A stretch of DNA of 32,554 bases from Burkholderiaceae bacterium (lineage in GTDB: Bacteria > Pseudomonadota > Gammaproteobacteria > Burkholderiales > Burkholderiaceae_B): NCBI GenBank assembly GCA_029866055.1, contig JARXAG010000037.1:1-32554 (forward strand), given 5' to 3'. The notes below the pieces were generated by a model, which was given only the letters and a program-made list of their open reading frames with translations, made no database searches and had not been told where the DNA came from. Made by a program: the position numbers and the translations under genes. This document shows, in pieces, positions 21,073-30,170 of the stretch. Position 1 is the first letter of the stretch. Each line of letters starts with the position of its first letter.

Positions 21073-22539
21073 TTAGCGAGGTAAGTCGCTTGTACCCATT
21101 AAAAATTCATCAACTGAGCGTGCGCATTGGCGACCTTCTCGTATCGCCCAAACTACCAGCGACTGACCGCGTCGCATGTCCCCGGCCGCAAAGACCTTTG
21201 CAAGATTGGTGCGGTAATCGTCAGTGTTGGCGCGCACGTTACCGCGCGCATCTTGATCGACGCCAAAGGCCGTCAAGATATTACTCACGGGGGCGACAAA
21301 GCCCATGGCCAGCAGAACGAGATCCGCTTGAATATCGAATTCAGAGCCTTTGACCTCTTGCATCTTCATCTGGCCTGATGTTTCGTCTTTGATCCATTCG
21401 ACGCGAGCCGCGACAAGCTTTTCGACTTTGCCACCTTTGCCTGCCAAAGATTTACTTGTGATTGCCCAGTCGCGGTCGGCACCTTCTTCGTGCGATGACG
21501 AGGTGCGCAATTTTGCAGGCCAGTAAGGCCAAGTCATCGCTTTGTTCTCGCTCTCGGGCGGGCGTGGCATCAATTCAATTTGTGTGACGGATTTGGCGCC
21601 ATGGCGGTTACTGGTGCCGACACAATCTGAGCCGGTATCGCCACCACCAATTACGACCACATGCTTGCCTTTGGCCAGCACTTGCGAACTGAGCTTGTCG
21701 CCGGCGACGACTTTGTTTTGCGGACGCAAGAAATCCATCGCGTACATCACGCCGTCGAGCTCGCGACCGGCAATTGGTAAGTCGCGCGGAGTCTCACAGC
21801 CGCCAGTTAACACCACGGCATCAAACTCTTTTTGCAAATCCGCTGGAGTTTTAACGGTGAGGTCTTTGCTAGGGGCTTGTGCGGCCTCGCCAATGTAATG
21901 CGAGGTTTTGAACGTGACGCCTTCAGCTTGCATTTGAGTGATACGCTGATCAATCAAGGTTTTTTCAAGTTTGAAATCGGGTATGCCATAGCGCAGCAAG
22001 CCACCGATACGATCATTTTTTTCAAAGACGGTCACGGCATGACCGACACGTGCGAGCTGTTGCGCGCAGGCTAAGCCTGCTGGACCCGAACCAATCACCG
22101 CAACCGTTTTACCGGTTTTGTGAGCGGGCGGCTGGGGCACAACCCATCCTTCGGCCCATCCTTTGTCAATAATTGCATGCTCAATGGATTTGATCCCAAC
22201 GGCATCATCATTAATGTTCAGTGTGCAAGCCGCTTCGCAAGGCGCGGGGCAAATACGCCCCGTAAATTCTGGAAAATTGTTGGTCGAGTGAAGCACATCC
22301 AGAGCCCCGCGCCAGTTTTGGCGAAATACGAGGTCGTTCCAGTCGGGGATGATGTTGTTCACGGGGCAGCCGTTATTGCAAAACGGTATGCCGCAATCCA
22401 TGCAGCGCGCCGCTTGTTTGCCCGCTTGCTCATCCGAGAGATGCAAGACGAATTCGCGCCAATGTTTGAGGCGACTCGTAGGCGCTTCAGACGCCTCTTG
22501 CAGACGATCGTGCTCTAAAAAGCCAGTGATTTTTCCCAT
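21073..22539 (-). CDS. gltD: Glutamate synthase (NADPH) small subunit
   Basis: Oxidises NADPH and passes electrons to GltB for reductive synthesis of glutamate from glutamine and 2-oxoglutarate. The 488-residue protein begins [16 protein letters not shown] and has the N-terminal 4Fe-4S cysteine cluster ([20 protein letters not shown], then CPAPCEAAC), an [17 protein letters not shown] motif and an [18 protein letters not shown] motif. The start ATG at 22539 is 9 bases after the gltB stop, and its ribosome site AAGGAA overlaps that stop codon, indicating coupled translation. Confidence 0.97.
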
Positions 22540-22548
22540 GATGATTCC

Positions 22549-25500
22549 TTATGCTGCTTTGGGTTGTGGATTGGCAGCGCGCCACATCTCGCCAAGGGCG
22601 CGCTTGTAATCCACAGGCATGATTTTGATGAATTTACCGCGTGCGTTTTCCCAGTGGCTGACTAAGTCGCGTGCGCCAAAACTACCGGTGTAACGGAAAT
22701 GGTTTTCAACCAATCGTTTGAGGATCGCTTCGTCGGTTTCGCGCGCATCGTTGCGGCCCAAGCTGTGCCAGATGTCGATACCTTGTGTCTTCTCTTGTTC
22801 AGCAGAAGACAGCACGGGCTCGATCGCGACCATGCTCAGATTGCAACGTTCAGCAAAGGTACGCTCTGGATCCCAGACATAGGCGACGCCACCCGACATG
22901 CCGGCCGCGAAGTTGCGCCCGGTTGCGCCCAACACCACGACGGTGCCGCCAGTCATGTACTCGCAACCATGGTCGCCCGTGCCTTCGACAACTGCCGCGG
23001 CACCCGAGTTGCGCACGGCAAAGCGCTCGCCAGCAACGCCGTTGAAATAGGCCTCGCCACCCGTGGCGCCGTATAGCACCGTGTTACCGATAATGATGTG
23101 GTCAGTTCCTAAACCACGAAAATCGTTAGGTGAGCGTACGATGATTCGACCGCCCGACAAACCTTTACCAACGTAGTCGTTGCCTTCACCCACTAAATCG
23201 AGTGTGATGCCACGAGCCAAGAAGGCGCCAAAGCTTTGGCCGGCTGTGCCGTTGCACTGAATATGGATGGTGTCGTCGGGCAGACCTTCATCACCATAGC
23301 GTGTGGCGATTCGCCCAGACAACATCGCGCCAATCGTGCGATTACGATTACGTACCGGTACGATGAAGGACACTTTTTCACCGCGTTCGATCGCAGGCTT
23401 GCTGCGCTCAATCAGTTCGTGATCAAGCGCCGACTCAAGGCCGTGGTCTTGTGTTTCGAGCTGACGGCGTGGGCTGTCGTTGGCGGGCTGGTAAAACACA
23501 CGACTGAAATCCAGGCCGTGGGCCTTCCAGTGCTCGATGCCCGAGCGGGTATCGAGCAGATCGACACGGCCGACCAATTCGTCGAACGTGCGAATGCCCA
23601 GCTGAGCCATGATTTCGCGAACCTCTTCGGCCACAAAAAAGAAGTAGTTCACAACGTTTTCTGGCTTGCCTTGAAATTTTTGACGTAAGACTGGGTCTTG
23701 CGTGGCGACACCAACAGGGCAGGTGTTCAGATGGCATTTGCGCATCATGATGCAGCCCTCAACGACTAGAGGCGCTGTTGCAAAGCCGAATTCGTCAGCC
23801 CCGAGCAGTGCGCCAATTGCAACGTCGCGGCCTGTTTTCATTTGACCGTCGGCCTGCACGCGAATACGGCTGCGCAGTTTGTTGAGCATCAGCGTTTGTT
23901 GCGTCTCGGCCAGGCCAAGCTCCCAAGGCGTGCCAGCGTGCTTGATGGATGAAACAGGAGACGCACCCGTGCCGCCGTCATGCCCTGAGATGGTGACGTG
24001 ATCTGCCTTCGCTTTGGCGACGCCAGCAGCGACCGTACCGACACCAACCTCAGAAACAAGCTTGACTGAAATTGAAGCGCGCGCATTGACGTTTTTAAGG
24101 TCGTGAATCAGCTGTGCCAAATCTTCGATCGAGTAAATGTCGTGGTGCGGAGGTGGTGAAATAAGACCAACGCCAGGCACCGAGCAGCGCAACTTAGCGA
24201 TGTACTCTGAAACTTTATGACCAGGTAATTGACCGCCCTCACCAGGCTTGGCCCCTTGCGCCATTTTGATCTGGATTTGATCTGCGCTTGAGAGGTATTC
24301 GGCACTGACGCCAAAGCGCCCCGAGGCAACCTGCTTAATCTTAGAGCGCATCGAATCGCCAGCTTGCAAGGGCACGTCAGCGGCAATCCGATCGGCGCCA
24401 AGCTCAGAGGCGAGGGTAGCGCCTGCGAGAATGCCACTGTTGCCGGTACGCAATTCGTTACGGTAGCGCAGCTCGTCTTCGCCGCCTTCGCCGGTGTTTG
24501 ATTTTCCGCCAATTCGATTCATGGCAACGGCGAGAACCGAGTGCGCTTCTGTTGAAATCGAACCAAGCGACATTGCACCGGTTGCAAAGCGTTTGACAAT
24601 CTCTTTGGCGGATTCAACTTCGTCGATCGCGATGGCACGCGCCGGATCCACCTTGAATTCAAAGAGGCCGCGCAAGGTCATGTGACGCTTGCTTTGATCG
24701 TTAATCAACTGCGCGTATTCTTTGTATGTACGGTAGTTATTCGCACGCGTGGCGTGTTGCAATTTAGCGATCGAATCAGGCGTCCACATGTGGTCTTCGC
24801 CGCGGACACGGTAGGCGTACTCGCCACCCGCATCCAAGGCGTTTGCCAACACCGGATCGTTACCAAAGGCCGCACGATGAGTGCGCAAGGCCTCTTCGGC
24901 AACTTCAAAAATACCGATACCTTCGATCGTGCTGGCGGTGCCTGAAAAGTATTTGTTGACTAAGGCTGTGCGCAAGCCAACCGCTTCGAAAATTTGCGCG
25001 CCGCAGTACGACATGTAAGTCGAGATGCCCATTTTGGACATGACTTTATTGAGGCCTTTGCCGATTGCTTTGATGTAGTTTTTTTCTGCTTTGTCAGGCG
25101 TGACCGACATGTCTTTCAAGCTTTCTAGAGCAAGAAAAGGATGGATGGCCTCGGCCCCGTAGCCGCCCAGCAAGGCAAAATGATGTACCTCGCGCGCTGA
25201 GCCTGTTTCAACGACCAAGCCAGTGTTGGTGCGTAACCCTTCGCGAATCAGGTGCTGATGAATCGCAGAGGTGGCGAGCAAGGCTGGGATCGCAACGCGC
25301 TCGTGATCAACCGCGCGGTCGGTTAGGATCAGGACATTAAAGCCGGTGTTCACGGCGTCAACGGCGCGTGCACAAAGCGCTGCGATGCGCGCCTCAATCC
25401 CCTGCGCGCCCCACGAAGCAGGATAGGTGATATCCAACGCAAAGCTGCGAAACTTGTCGCCCGTAAGCTCGGCAATTGAACGCAACTGGGCCATTTCGGC

Positions 25501-27285
25501 CACGTCAAGAACGGGCTGCGTCACTTCAAGACGTAACGGTGGATTGACGTTGTTGATATCGAGCAGGTTGGGCTTAGGTCCGATGAACGAGACCAAGGAC
25601 ATCACCATTTGCTCGCGAATTGGGTCGATCGGCGGGTTAGTCACCTGCGCAAACAACTGACGAAAGTAATTGTAAAAAGGTTTTGCACGGCTCGACAAAA
25701 TCGCCAACGGCGCGTCGTTACCCATCGAACCAATTGATTCTTCACCTGTCTCGGCCATCACCTCAAGAATGAATTTGTAATCTTCTTGCGTCCAGCCAAA
25801 AGCTTGTTGACGGTCTAACAATGTGTTCTTTGTATGGATCAGTGCGGCGCTTTGCGGCGCGGGTAAGGATTCAAGCTTGACGCGCAGGCGATCAATCCAC
25901 TGGCGATAGGGCCGCGAGTTTGCCAGCTGTGATTTGATCTCAGCATCGTCAATGATTCGGCCTTGTTCAAGGTCGATTAAAAACATTTTCCCTGGTTGCA
26001 GGCGCCATTTTTTGACGATACGATTTTCTGGGATCGGAAGCGTGCCGGCCTCAGAGGCCATGATCACCATGTCGTCATCAGTGATGAGGTAACGTGCGGG
26101 GCGCAAACCGTTGCGGTCAAGCGTCGCACCAATTTGACGGCCATCGGTAAACGCGACGGCTGCGGGGCCGTCCCAGGGCTCCATCATTGCGGCGTGATAT
26201 TCATAGAAGGCACGACGGCTCGCGTCCATGTGTGTGTGTTGTTCCCAGGCCTCTGGAATCATCATCATCATGGCGTGTGCGAGCGAGTAGCCTGACATGA
26301 CCAACAACTCAAGGCAGTTGTCGAAGGTGGCTGTGTCGGATTGTCCTTCGTAGACAATCGGGTAAAGTTTTTGCAGATCTTCACCGAGCACGGCAGATTG
26401 CATCATGCCTTCGCGCGCGCGCAACCAGTTGAAATTGCCTTTGACAGTGTTGATCTCGCCGTTGTGCGCGATCATGCGGTAGGGGTGCGCGAGCGGCCAA
26501 GCTGGAAACGTGTTGGTCGAAAAGCGCTGGTGGACTAAGGCCACGGCGGATACGGTTAGGGGATCTGCCAAGTCGCGATAGTAGCGACCCACTTGATCGG
26601 CAAGCAGCAAGCCTTTGTAGACAATCGTGCGTACCGAAGCCGAAGGAACAAAGTACTCTTGGCCGTGCACTAAGCCCATGGCTTGGATGGCGTGGCTGGC
26701 AGTTTTGCGAATAACGTACAGTTTGCGCTCGAGGGCGTCAGGCACCATCACGTCGGCACCACGGCCAATGAATAGCTGGCGTATGACGGGCTCGCAGGCG
26801 CGCACGGTTGGCGACATAGGCATGTCGGCATCAACCGGCACATCGCGCCAGCCCAATACAACTTGTTTCTCAGCACGTACAGCGCGCTCGAGTTCTTGTT
26901 CACAGGCTAAACGCGAGGCGATTTCTTTGGGCAAAAACACCATGGCCACACCGTACTCGCCAGGGGCGGGCAGCACGACGCCTTGACGGGCGAGTTCTTG
27001 GCGAAAGAAAGCGTCGGGAATCTGGATCAAGATGCCCGCACCGTCGCCCATCAGCTTGTCGGCACCTACGGCGCCGCGATGGTCAAGGTTTTCAAGAATT
27101 TTTAGACCTTGTTGAACGATTGAGTGGCTTTTTAACCCCTTGATGTGCGCGACAAACCCGACACCGCAGGCATCGTGTTCGTTGGCGGGCGAGTAGAGGC
27201 CTTGCGCTTTGGGCAAGCCAACCACAGGGGTTGCCGCAGTCTGTTTAACGGCTGCGGGTTGAAATGTTAAGGGAAACGTTTGCAT
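22549..27285 (-). CDS. gltB: Glutamate synthase (NADPH) large subunit
   Basis: Hydrolyses glutamine and channels the ammonia to an FMN site where glutamate is formed. The ATG at 27285, with AGGAG about 8 bases upstream, gives 1578 residues; a longer frame from 27360 would start inside the promoter region. The N-terminal nucleophile of the mature enzyme is Cys40 in [15 protein letters not shown], so a propeptide of 39 residues is expected. Next come the amidotransferase domain ([20 protein letters not shown]), the central domain, the FMN-binding synthase domain ([30 protein letters not shown]), the 3Fe-4S cysteines ([15 protein letters not shown]) and the C-terminal beta-helix with GxxGG repeats ([11 protein letters not shown]). 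Confidence 0.97.
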
Positions 27286-27313: not shown

Positions 27314-27360
27314 TTGCAGTGCGAGGGGGAGACGATACGCCTGAAAATGCGGCACTGCAA
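27314..27360 (-). promoter_or_regulatory. Candidate gltB promoter embedded in a 9-bp inverted repeat
   Basis: On the minus strand TTGCAG (27360-27355) and TATCGT (27337-27332) are spaced 17 bases apart, about 47 bases before the gltB start. The same -35 hexamer is part of a perfect 9-bp inverted repeat, TTGCAGTGC (27314-27322) and GCACTGCAA (27352-27360), 29 bases apart, which brackets the -10 box. Such an arrangement could bind a regulator at both ends of the promoter; no known glt regulator motif is claimed. Confidence 0.45.
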
Positions 27361-27365
27361 GGGGA

Positions 27366-27439
27366 TTTAATTGGGGTGCGTCCCTAATTAAAGAGCAAAA
27401 GCAAAATAGGTAGGGTTAATTGGGGACGCACCACCCTAC
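27366..27439. repeat. REPIN-like pair of inverted palindromic repeats beside the RAYT gene
   Basis: GGTGCGTCCCTAATTAA (27375-27391) recurs in inverted orientation at 27416-27432 with 16 of 17 positions matching, 24 bases between. The first unit is itself a hairpin: TTTAATTGGGG (27366-27376) pairs with CCCTAATTAAA (27382-27392), one G-T wobble, around a 5-base loop. The second unit is enclosed by GTAGGGT (27410-27416) and ACCCTAC (27433-27439). Two inverted REP-like units directly after a RAYT stop codon is the REPIN layout. The pair lies between the gltB promoter and the RAYT 3' end, so it could also act as a bidirectional transcript boundary. Confidence 0.65.
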
Positions 27440-28128
27440 AGAGTGACCCGCTTGGGCCTGCCGCGCAGACCTGGTTGCACACGGCGATTGGCGCAAAGAG
27501 CAAGCTCGGTCAAAAAATGCTGGTCTCCTAAGCCCCACTGACCCTTCAAGGCTAACTCGATTTGATGGTCGCTGGCGGCACCATTACCTGCATTGAGCCG
27601 ATCGCGATAGGCAGCTTGTCGGGCAAAGGGGGTGTTGCCGCACAGCCAATAATCGGCGTGCGGTTGCAGCCAATTCGCCCTGGAGTCACTGCCCTCGGTG
27701 TGTGCGTGTGCAGACGACCACGCCCATTGCGTCGGTTCGTCAACCAAGCCTTCTCGCGTTGTGCTGCGCTCTAACCAAATGAGGCAAGGCAAGACCCAGC
27801 TCTCGGGTTGTGGGATCGTTGAGCGATATCGCCCGCTAAACACGCCACCAAGCTTTAAGTGCGCAGCTAACCGGCGCCCAAGATCTTGAATCAAGCGAGA
27901 CATGCCGACTGCTTCGCTTGGTGTAGCGAGCACGTATAACCCTGTTGACGCGATGCACCAGCCGTGGATAGCAACGCGATGCTGATGGGCGCTCTGCCCA
28001 AGCCAACTGGCCAAACGCTCAAAGCTTTGCCCCGCAGACGTACTCAGCACACGGGCGGTGGCAGGGGTGAACTGTGCCGTAATGAGTTGCGCTTGATCCG
28101 GCGCAAACAGCCGAGGGAGTCGAGCCAT
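27436..28128 (-). CDS. RAYT-like (IS200/REP-associated transposase family) protein, catalytic motifs degenerate
   Basis: 230 residues from ATG 28128 (MARLPRLF). The frame of the TnpA_REP family is recognisable: RLPRL at the N-terminus, HRVAIHGWCIASTGLYVLAT where family members read Y-x-LMPNHxHLL-x-TP, MSRLIQDLGRRLAAHL, GVFSGRYRSTI for the usual LWQGRFKS, then ESWVLPCLIWLER where the catalytic-tyrosine helix (YLLxxYRYIELNPVRA) should be, and WAWSSAHAH for WSSYRxH. The HUH histidines are replaced by STGLY (61-65) and the tyrosine positions by W/L, so it should not cut DNA. The C-terminus has NRRVQPGLRGRPKR, with an AT-hook-like RGRP core. It starts 31 bases after the YjiK-like gene, with a poor ribosome site. 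Probably a domesticated DNA-binding protein; alternatively a decaying transposase, though the reading frame is intact. Confidence 0.75.
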   Translation of the reverse strand: MARLPRLFAPDQAQLITAQFTPATARVLSTSAGQSFERLASWLGQSAHQHRVAIHGWCIASTGLYVLATPSEAVGMSRLIQDLGRRLAAHLKLGGVFSGRYRSTIPQPESWVLPCLIWLERSTTREGLVDEPTQWAWSSAHAHTEGSDSRANWLQPHADYWLCGNTPFARQAAYRDRLNAGNGAASDHQIELALKGQWGLGDQHFLTELALCANRRVQPGLRGRPKRVTL

Positions 28129-28159: not shown

Positions 28160-29107
28160 TTAGGGCTTGCGTAGGCGGTAGAACAAATTTGGCGCGCTGA
28201 CGATATACAGACTACCCGCTTCGTCGGTTGCCACGCCTTCTGGCCTAGGCATCGGGGTTGCACCTTTGTTGGGCGATAAAGACAACATGCCCCGGCCTTC
28301 GCCGCTATCTCCGTCAAGCTGCACAATCATCTGAGACTCTTCGCTTAACAGGAACACACGCCCCGTGACTGGGTCAACCTCGACCGACGACAGATCAGTG
28401 GCAAAGGGTATCTCTTCAAGCCAACGGCTCACATTTTCAATACGTAGACCGCGCGAATCCGGAGACTGCAGATAATTTAGCCCGCTGACTCGGTATAAGG
28501 CCCTTGGGCTGTGTTCTTTAGCGATATAAAGGCGGTCACGCTTGAGGTCATAGCCCAAGCCTTGAAAACCGTGATTACTGTCCTCTGACTCGCCAAATCT
28601 TAAGACCAGCGAGAAACTGCGAGTGGTGTCAATTGTTTGCGGGGTTGCTGGAATCTCGACCAGCGCGATCCGGTTGCGCGCGCCATTGACTAACGCCACG
28701 CGATTACCGCCTACCCAGGCGATCCCATCGACGTCTGACATGCCTTTCACTGGATAAGTTGCCAGCAATTGGCCGTCGATCGACAGCGCATGTAGGGCTG
28801 TGGGCTTGTTGGAAACGGCCAAGAGGCGCTTTTGCAGTGCATCATAGGTCAGACCCGAGAGATTGCCCTCGACGCCCGCGATGACCTTGGCACGGTCTGG
28901 CGGGGCATACCCAGTCAGTGTGTTGCCTCCACCGCTAGCGACCTTTTTCTCAAACTGCGCCTGTTTGGCGGCCAAACCCGACACCCAGCGGTATGCCACT
29001 TGCTCGGCATGATAAAAGCGCACACCGATATAGGTTGTCCAGCCCATGGCTATGACAACAAGACAAGCTAACAAAATCTTTGATAAAAACTTGACTAAAT
29101 CGGACAT
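28160..29107 (-). CDS. Membrane-anchored SdiA-regulated (YjiK-like) beta-propeller protein
   Basis: About 315 residues. An N-terminal helix (ILLACLVVIAMGWTTYIGVR, about 11-30) anchors it; the rest is expected in the periplasm. The body resembles the SdiA-regulated/YjiK family: NLSGLTYDALQKRLLAVSNK, GMSDVDGIAWVGGNRVALVN, GFQGLGYDLKRDRLYIAKEH, LSSVEVDPVTGRVFLLSEES and PEGVATDEAGSLYIVSAPN are successive propeller blades. No enzymatic function is established for the family. Start chosen at ATG 29107; an in-frame TTG four codons earlier is possible and ribosome sites are weak for both. It is divergent from rpoH and followed closely by the RAYT-like gene. Confidence 0.82.
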   Translation of the reverse strand: MSDLVKFLSKILLACLVVIAMGWTTYIGVRFYHAEQVAYRWVSGLAAKQAQFEKKVASGGGNTLTGYAPPDRAKVIAGVEGNLSGLTYDALQKRLLAVSNKPTALHALSIDGQLLATYPVKGMSDVDGIAWVGGNRVALVNGARNRIALVEIPATPQTIDTTRSFSLVLRFGESEDSNHGFQGLGYDLKRDRLYIAKEHSPRALYRVSGLNYLQSPDSRGLRIENVSRWLEEIPFATDLSSVEVDPVTGRVFLLSEESQMIVQLDGDSGEGRGMLSLSPNKGATPMPRPEGVATDEAGSLYIVSAPNLFYRLRKP

Positions 29108-29221
29108 ACCAGAACCCAAAATGAACCAGCAAGGCTATCGCCCGCTAGTCGCCGACCGCAGCCCCTTGAGATTAACACCACAAGAAGAAATGCGGAACTT
29201 TCTGATCATAAGCCCGTCTTA

Positions 29222-29248
29222 TTAGCACTCGGGCAACGAGAGTGCTAA
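29222..29248. promoter_or_regulatory. CIRCE element (HrcA operator) upstream of rpoH
   Basis: The sequence TTAGCACTC (29222-29230), nine bases, GAGTGCTAA (29240-29248) is an exact match to the consensus CIRCE operator of the heat-shock repressor HrcA; symmetry extends two more bases each side (29220-29250). It lies 43 bases before the rpoH start. Because the likely rpoH promoter overlaps it, HrcA binding should repress rpoH at normal temperature. hrcA itself is not in the window. Confidence 0.92.
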
Positions 29249-29251
29249 TAT
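29222..29251 (+). promoter_or_regulatory. Candidate rpoH promoter overlapping CIRCE
   Basis: TTAGCA (29222-29227, four of six bases to the -35 consensus) and TAATAT (29246-29251) are 18 bases apart, and both fall in the CIRCE arms. This gives a transcript start near 29258 and a short leader. The overlap with the operator supports repression by occlusion. The -35 match is moderate. Confidence 0.4.
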
Positions 29252-29291
29252 ATCCAAATGCATCGTGCCCGTGTTTTGGAGCGATTTTCTC

Positions 29292-30170
29292 ATGACAAAT
29301 TCAGCTGCTTTGACTTTACAACCATCACAACTTGCAATGGCTATCTCGAATCCTGGCTCGCTGGGAACGATTGAGGCCTATATAACGACTGTCAACCGCT
29401 TGCCGGTGCTATCCGCTGAGCAAGAGCTCACGCTCGCGCGTCGCTTGCGCGACAACGAGGATATCGCCGCGGCCCGCGAACTTGTGCTGTCGCATCTGCG
29501 CTTGGTGGTTTCAGTCGCCCGGCAATATTTGGGCTACGGCTTGCCTCACGCAGATTTGATCCAAGAAGGCAACGTAGGGCTGATGAAGGCGGTTAAACGC
29601 TTTGATCCCGAGCGTGGCGTGCGCCTCGTATCGTTTGCTGTGCACTGGATTAAAGCCGAAATTCATGAGTACGTCGTGCGCAACTGGCGTATGGTTAAAG
29701 TCGCCACAACCAAAGCCCAACGCAAGTTGTTTTTTAACTTGCGCAGCATGCGACCCGACGGCCAAACGCTTGACACACACCAAGTGGCAGAGATCGCTGC
29801 AACGCTAAAGGTGAGCCCCGAAGACGTCCGTGAAATGGAAGTCCGGATGTCGGGGCGCGAACTGTCGCTCGAAAATCAGGACGACGATGACGAGTCATAC
29901 GCACCAATCGCCTACCTGTCAGACGAGGGTCGCTCAGACCCCACGCAGGTACTCGAGCGTCACGCCGCGGATGAGAGGCAGGGCAGTGGTTTGACGCAGG
30001 CACTCGACATCCTCGACGAGCGCTCACGACGCATCGTAGAGGCACGCTGGTTGCAAGACGACGGCGGCGCCACTCTGCATGACTTGGCGGCCGAATTCGG
30101 CGTGTCAGCAGAACGTATTCGCCAGATCGAAGTTGCAGCGATGAAAAAAATGCGCTCGCACCTGAGCTAA
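29292..30170 (+). CDS. rpoH: RNA polymerase heat-shock sigma factor (sigma-32)
   Basis: Directs transcription of heat-shock genes. From ATG 29292, with GGAG about 10 bases upstream, the protein has 292 residues. Region 2 shows LVLSHLRLVVSVARQYLGYG, LIQEGNVGLMKAVKRFDPER and RLVSFAVHWIKAEIHEYVVR; the diagnostic RpoH box QRKLFFNLR is at 143-151; region 4 ends with the helix-turn-helix TLHDLAAEFGVSAERIRQIE. A GTG nine codons earlier would add a non-conserved leader. It is preceded by a CIRCE operator and followed after 3 bases by an antiporter gene, so the two are likely co-transcribed. Confidence 0.97.
   Translation: MTNSAALTLQPSQLAMAISNPGSLGTIEAYITTVNRLPVLSAEQELTLARRLRDNEDIAAARELVLSHLRLVVSVARQYLGYGLPHADLIQEGNVGLMKAVKRFDPERGVRLVSFAVHWIKAEIHEYVVRNWRMVKVATTKAQRKLFFNLRSMRPDGQTLDTHQVAEIAATLKVSPEDVREMEVRMSGRELSLENQDDDDESYAPIAYLSDEGRSDPTQVLERHAADERQGSGLTQALDILDERSRRIVEARWLQDDGGATLHDLAAEFGVSAERIRQIEVAAMKKMRSHLS

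Follow-up and report, generated by a model that had tools for sequence, protein, structure and literature searches.

The gene orfX, directly upstream of the glutamate synthase genes gltB and gltD and on their strand, probably encodes a domesticated RAYT that has lost its nuclease centre and would bind DNA in trans as a regulator dedicated to gltBD, with an operator derived from the terminal repeat of the ancestral element. Judging from sequence comparison, we propose that the same may well hold for a gltB-linked RAYT clade in many families of the order. This clade would have made its own transposon end the glutamate-synthase operator and become a single-target regulator of nitrogen assimilation, and the role would have preceded loss of the nuclease (at least six times, twelve by parsimony), leaving nuclease-dead Y1 transcription factors. 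In the window, the whole stretch of 32,554 nt analysed here, the relevant features are as follows.

27436..28128, minus strand: orfX, nuclease-dead RAYT/TnpA-REP homologue of 230 aa (CDS 27439-28128 plus stop), assigned from homology, alignment, predicted fold and dN/dS
22549..27285, minus strand: gltB, large subunit of glutamate synthase (start codon ATG at 27285; the automatic ORF call begins earlier, at a TTG)
21073..22539, minus strand: gltD, glutamate synthase small subunit
27367..27391, no strand assigned: putative proximal operator, 25-bp palindrome TTAATTGGGG-TGCGT-CCCTAATTAA, directly 5' of the gltB -35 box
27416..27432, no strand assigned: distal half-site, inverted copy of the proximal arm (94% over 17 nt)
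27355..27360, minus strand: -35 box TTGCAG of the predicted gltB promoter (consensus prediction)
27332..27337, minus strand: -10 box TATCGT of the predicted gltB promoter, 17-bp spacer (consensus prediction)

The orfX protein and its missing catalytic residues

The orfX frame runs from the ATG at 28128 to the TAG at 27436-27438 through 230 codons without interruption, as the preliminary description of this DNA had stated. A longer start at the TTG at 28326 is possible and would overlap the upstream gene. Residues 1-227 align with an intact RAYT of the same family at 31% identity (E 7.8e-26; G056:C4:64926-65615), and orfX also falls into a single alignment with intact gltB-linked members. That intact RAYT, L041, exceeds the cut-offs of both Pfam Y1_Tnp (46.9 vs 23 bits) and NCBIfam REP_Tyr_transpos (81.4 vs 80). 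With orfX itself, searches of Pfam, NCBIfam and PHROGs gave no match at E<=1 and the curated Pfam and NCBIfam cut-offs were not reached, because the protein has diverged so far. The earlier assignment to the RAYT family was thus right in a case where the profile libraries fail; the homology to RAYTs extends from end to end. A phmmer search of orfX against PDB sequences returned a chance match only; with an intact relative as query, IS200-type transposases appeared among the chance matches and a hemocyanin ranked first. No Pfam HTH match was found in orfX, and Rfam gave no match on the window.

The AlphaFold2 model of orfX, built from an alignment of 54 sequences, reached a pLDDT of 92.6 and a pTM of 0.89, and that of L150, an intact gltB-type relative, is equally good (pLDDT 92.7). 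The best PDB structural match of the orfX model is 4er8, a RAYT bound to a REP hairpin that we take to be the E. coli TnpA-REP protein (E 1e-6; TM-score 0.72 normalised to the target and 0.53 to the query). It is the only match with E <0.001, and the IS608 and ISDra2 transposases follow at E 0.001 or above. As predicted, orfX retains the Y1 fold, which answers the structure check suggested in the preliminary description. Among the stretches well conserved in the orthologues are the start MARLPRLY, the beta-4 stretch GRVFxGRYRS, GNTPF, GQWALG and the tail RGRPRK, with GNTP and GQWxLG containing nine of the 27 invariant columns. Of the gltB-type proteins, 156 of 159 have the GRP-type tail, as do 18 of 24 other RAYTs.

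Alignment places TNHVHLL of L041 on STGLYVL of orfX, so that the two His columns are occupied by Gly63 and Tyr65. The column of the catalytic Tyr holds Trp118, and the Asn of Y---NP is replaced by Ser122, followed by Thr123. The metal-binding histidines of the HUH motif, the catalytic Tyr and the Y---NP motif, by which RAYTs are recognised, are all absent from orfX. The loss of both histidines and the Tyr had been read from the letters before, and the alignment now puts defined residues in their place. A displaced HUH motif was considered and rejected, as the HUH and Tyr columns are filled by other residues. That orfX is still an active nuclease working through substitute residues is scarcely credible: it does have the complete fold, and one His or the Tyr survives in some relatives, but neither His column holds a conserved replacement among 37 orthologues (commonest residue 46% and 32%), and position 118 is Trp in 97% of them, a residue incapable of serving as the nucleophile.

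Two neighbouring loci were also observed. An inverted repeat, TATTAGCACTC-N9-GAGTGCTAATA, lies at 29220-29250 just upstream of rpoH (29265-30170, plus strand) and fits the CIRCE element of HrcA; if it is one, the heat-shock sigma factor RpoH would be under HrcA control. An SdiA-regulated-domain protein (28160-29119, minus strand; Pfam PF06977, E 1.3e-60) is encoded between rpoH and orfX in the window's genus, and among the loci compared it occurs outside the genus only at L056 (36% identity).

Distribution, selection and the gltB-linked clade

The orfX family is present in 153 of 200 sampled genomes of the window's family (141 of the 178 of good quality) and in 37 of 43 genera. The positive genomes mostly hold a single match each, and no stop occurs among the matches listed. 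By record title, the best 80 of 578 loci belong mostly to Alcaligenaceae (Zwartia, Achromobacter, Bordetella, Pusillimonas, Pigmentiphaga, Advenella, Pelistega and others) and include some MAGs under wider or other labels. RAYT and gltB occur together in 152 of the 200 family genomes, RAYT alone in 1, gltB alone in 14 and neither in 33. Nine of the 14 gltB-only genomes belong to one genus, two contain distant gltB relatives and one is a fragmented assembly. In G107 (L043/L288), the sole family genome of the 200 with a dead RAYT and no gltB found, the gene is still beside rpoH.

By their dN/dS values, the nuclease-dead RAYT genes are under purifying selection. Nei-Gojobori estimates over pairs with dS 0.05-1.5, which share loci and are hence non-independent, yielded a median dN/dS of 0.134 (range 0.011-0.345) for dead-dead pairs (371 pairs, 56 loci) and 0.093 for intact-intact pairs (10 pairs, 16 loci). 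Comparison of orfX with its closest relative gave a dN of 0.038 and a dS of 0.41. In favour of orfX being a slowly decaying pseudogene or passenger, whose frame is intact by chance, orfX evolves faster than gltB, with a within-genus identity of about 50% vs about 90%. Such decay is nonetheless highly improbable: neutrality would require a dN/dS near 1, the matches listed for the 153 positive genomes are free of stops, and the operator described below co-distributes with the gene. The earlier suggestion that selection has kept the frame agrees with these values.

Across the order, the orthologue profile matched 194 of 399 genomes when up to 7 first-look candidates were scored per genome, and the matches comprise RAYTs of mixed kinds. 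Filtering a selection of fetched loci for RAYT-like proteins with a minimum of 180 aa and 70 bits left 183 non-identical ones, the short or duplicate loci L001-L031 and L152-L181 being excluded. Of the 183, 133 are followed in the fetched DNA by gltB on their own strand, no more than 3 kb downstream, and every one of these 133 proteins carries the motif G[ND]TP[FYL] (signature GNTPF). Another 26 bear the motif with no close gltB in the fetched DNA. The motif is missing from the other 24 RAYTs, none of which is gltB-linked in the fetched DNA. The catalytic centre is dead in 88, intact in 30 and partly lost in 15 of the gltB-linked proteins, and dead in 20, intact in 4 and partly lost in 2 of the motif-bearing unlinked ones; it is intact in all 24 RAYTs without the motif. 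The gltB-linked clade includes catalytically intact members too, which extends the preliminary description. A vertically inherited group near gltB had been suggested there, together with a proposal to check the synteny; the spread over the family and the gltB linkage of 133 of the 159 GNTPF-type proteins bear this out, and the order-wide synteny with gltB speaks for vertical descent.

A quick tree was computed from 99 of the 183 rows, with Alcaligenaceae thinned, the catalytic columns omitted, and support given as SH-aLRT only, with no bootstrap. One branch with an SH-aLRT of 100 splits the gltB-linked clade from the other RAYTs. Intact and lost states require 12 changes by parsimony, at least 6 of them on branches with support of 95 or more. 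The count itself gives no direction, and we read the changes as losses because a regain of HUH and Tyr is implausible.

A paired repeat at the gltB promoter

The centre of the palindrome in the window lies near -54 of the predicted gltB promoter (the -35 box being taken to begin at -36), with the distal half-site about 48 bp further up. When up to two mismatches were allowed, the arm matched the 2.65-Mb assembly at two places, both of them here, and the backwards control at one; a dispersed REP family in the window genome was rejected on this count. A related repeat is found across the order; its core reads GGGACGnACCC at the lost-type loci within the window's family and GACTCTGACCC or GGGGTCAGACCCC at many loci whose enzyme is intact; the operator core itself varies between GGGACG and GACTCTGACC across loci. 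Generic palindrome scoring gave a moderate signal only (the real sequence outscored the average of 3 shuffles in 109 of 133 cases) and was replaced by a half-site score, because it also picks terminators. The linked intergenic regions hold 2.08 half-sites each, vs 0.11 in mononucleotide shuffles.

Phasing was measured in 197 distinct upstream regions, in each of which the best sigma-70 promoter was chosen blind to the repeat. The putative operator is conserved at fixed distances from the -35 box, which peak at 12 bp (34 loci) and 60-62 bp (80) for direct half-sites and at 20-21 bp (64 loci) for inverted ones. The remaining distances scatter, as expected if another promoter was picked or the site lies elsewhere. 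Half-sites are spaced by 48-49 bp in direct orientation (49 pairs) and by 35-37 bp when inverted (113). When all regions were shuffled five times, a single one of 78 direct half-sites fell at 11-13 bp.

The preliminary description had suggested selection for DNA binding, and the DNA that orfX probably binds can now be named as the paired repeat at the gltB promoter. Both the binding of the operator by orfX and its binding as double-stranded DNA are what we infer from this arrangement. Alternatively, the protein might act on single-stranded DNA or RNA hairpins, at the replication fork or on a read-through transcript, the palindrome then mattering as an extruded hairpin and not as a duplex operator. 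In 4er8, the nearest solved structure, the RAYT is bound to a REP hairpin, and the complementary arms here could pair into a hairpin too. We regard this as quite improbable, since the palindrome precedes the predicted promoter, is not part of the gltB transcript and keeps a fixed distance from the -35 box, and the same is seen where the RAYT is not adjacent, hence where no RAYT read-through is expected. The sign of gltBD control may be judged from position: lying upstream of the -35 box, the site would suit an activator a little better than a repressor. We lean a little towards activation, as a palindrome centred near -54 suits contact with RNA polymerase from upstream; repression by bridging both sites is possible.

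No matching repeat was seen by eye upstream of orfX in the window, where the right-side repeat is present, so that orfX does not have the terminal repeats on both gene sides that characterise TIRYTs. A left half-site within 300 nt accompanies 17 of 30 intact vs 8 of 103 lost-type gltB-linked loci. The association of catalytic loss with left-repeat loss is strong in the raw counts and not significant over six phylogenetically independent pairs, and for that reason is not used as evidence.

The paired operator was scored within 400 nt of gltB in distinct regions. With the gene adjacent, the pair was found in 113 of 126 regions (intact 28/29, lost 85/97). With the gene present but separated from gltB (by at least 1.4 kb, or located elsewhere in the genome), gltB still carried the pair in 24 of 29 and at least one half-site in 28 of 29. 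Conversely, for 22 lost-type genes the fetched DNA shows no gltB within 3 kb (one of them, L138, has a contig that ends 281 nt behind the gene), and 20 of the 22 are not followed by a half-site. These two results indicate that the repeat belongs to the gltB promoter and not to the gene, that is, the operator follows the target gene and not the regulator gene. A mere transposon end attached to the gene was rejected on the 20 of 22. Where the gene is absent, no pair was found at gltB in any of 48 genomes (10 from the window's family, 6 from family f9 and 32 from other families), the absence being confirmed with every first-look candidate scored. Isolated half-sites occur in 6 of the 48, five of them in one genus and there terminator-like. 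The genomes are related and Fisher tests on these counts ignore kinship; many of the 48 gene-less genomes may never have had the gene, and clear independent co-losses number about three (the family genera g2 and g42, and perhaps the f9 genera g111/g149).

Loci known beforehand had been used to tune the half-site and spacing rules, and regions fetched later served as the held-out set. Here, the pair was found in 6 of 7 regions with a gltB-type RAYT (three genes elsewhere in the genome, four adjacent) and in 0 of 33 without one; among the 33 is G577, which has three RAYT matches, none with the motif. Two gene-negative genomes, G012 and G079, were set apart before the 48-genome count. G012 (L287) has a well-formed pair upstream of gltB and no RAYT found, its genus mate G051 has the gene, and either recent loss or a missing part of the assembly would account for this. 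G079, an assembly of 540 contigs, has half-sites but no pair. In L136, a RAYT is present and the operator absent, and in L185, L188 and L194 (family f31) a lost-type RAYT stands beside gltB with no pair. L188 has a different palindrome, CCAATT-TGAT-AATTGG, in place of the pair. Terminator-like hairpins with T runs directly follow the RAYT stop in L185, L188, L194 and L235, which suggests that RAYT and gltB are transcribed separately there. Variants were found in Achromobacter/Bordetella: inverted half-sites separated by about 140 bp in L093, L097 and L107, and just one in L098.

The repeat could instead be the operator of another transcription factor, with the RAYT a neighbour kept for an unrelated reason. 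Other bacteria have conventional gltBD regulators, namely Lrp, IHF, Crp and ArgR for E. coli (PMC1784095) and NtrC for some betaproteobacteria (PMC5343134), binding of the site by the RAYT is itself inferred only, and G012 has the site with no detectable RAYT. However, the repeat resembles the GGGGWSAS terminal repeats of RAYT-type elements (PMC3733652), the half-site also accompanies the 24 intact RAYTs that are not gltB-linked, in 16 on the upstream and in 15 on the downstream side, and the pair is missing at all 48 gltB promoters of the gene-less genomes. We consider a separate regulator rather unlikely and keep to orfX as the candidate operator-binding protein.

A strict whole-operator pattern matched the gltB promoter in 18 and missed it in 8 of 26 gene-bearing family genomes. 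It matched elsewhere 6 times in all, which is no more than chance given 13 matches of the backwards control. Six gene-less genomes of one genus gave no gltB match and one other (control 2). The arm was also searched in six genomes of other families with a gltB-linked RAYT, five intact and one lost (G336). In G205 (L203; one RAYT match, intact and gltB-linked), 43 arm matches were found chromosome-wide vs 2 in the control, and 28 of the 43 form 14 inverted pairs, mostly 43-49 bp apart. The other five genomes had 2-3 arm matches each vs 0-4 in the control. At least one intact member therefore seems to have spread its repeat, like an active RAYT, and the G205 copies are possibly a REPIN/MITE population mobilised by its RAYT.

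Proposed origin and comparison with known systems

Based on these comparisons, we propose a sequence of events. In some ancestor within the order, an intact RAYT element would have become established upstream of gltB, and its right end would have become the promoter operator while the enzyme was still intact. The operator is placed before the nuclease loss because intact members share the site pairs. The nuclease may then have become dispensable and disappeared several times, one of these losses preceding the radiation of the window's family, and the remaining protein would be a single-target regulator of gltBD. The genomes in which the gene is moved, absent, intact or dead form a natural experiment on this proposal.

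RAYTs elsewhere are regarded as domesticated transposases with a host benefit yet uncharacterised (PMC6006769; PMC8266576, which gives Y115 as the catalytic residue of TnpA-REP), and here one clade would receive a specific, testable job. PMC6006769 cites earlier work in which tnpA-REP genes are mainly vertical below the genus level and their benefit uncharacterised, and itself favours multiple horizontal transfers for class 2. For its tree, this survey by Quentin et al. (2018) retained only sequences with HuH and Y motifs, because of which HUH-less members stand outside it; surveys filtered on catalytic residues in this way would hide an exapted branch.

With RAYT/TnpA-REP of subclass 2.1 (PMC6006769), whose C-termini are described there as HTH-like, and with the TIRYT genes, described with GGGGWSAS terminal repeats (PMC3733652), orfX shares the Y1 fold, end-to-end homology, a C-terminal extension, the GRP tail, a usually single copy and a GGGGWSAS-like repeat. 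Unlike them, it has no HUH, Tyr or Asn, the left repeat is mostly lost, and the right repeat is a promoter-phased site. The gltBDF operon of E. coli is the same target under different regulators, namely Lrp, IHF, Crp and ArgR (PMC1784095). The word RAYT is absent from the available text of a review of such recruitments (PMC8987985). In our literature search, judged mainly by titles and abstract starts, no description of a gltB-linked or HUH-less RAYT was found.

E. coli TnpA-REP, the best structural match to the orfX model, is an active enzyme of 165 residues with many REP targets, whereas orfX has 230 residues and one putative operator. Transcription regulators that descend from nuclease-dead TnpB are known. 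They offer an analogy in function only, from transposon enzyme to transcription regulator, as they belong to an unrelated, RNA-guided protein family of which we claim no membership for orfX. If the proposal is true, the gltB-linked RAYTs would be the DNA-recognising counterpart to the TnpB-derived regulators.
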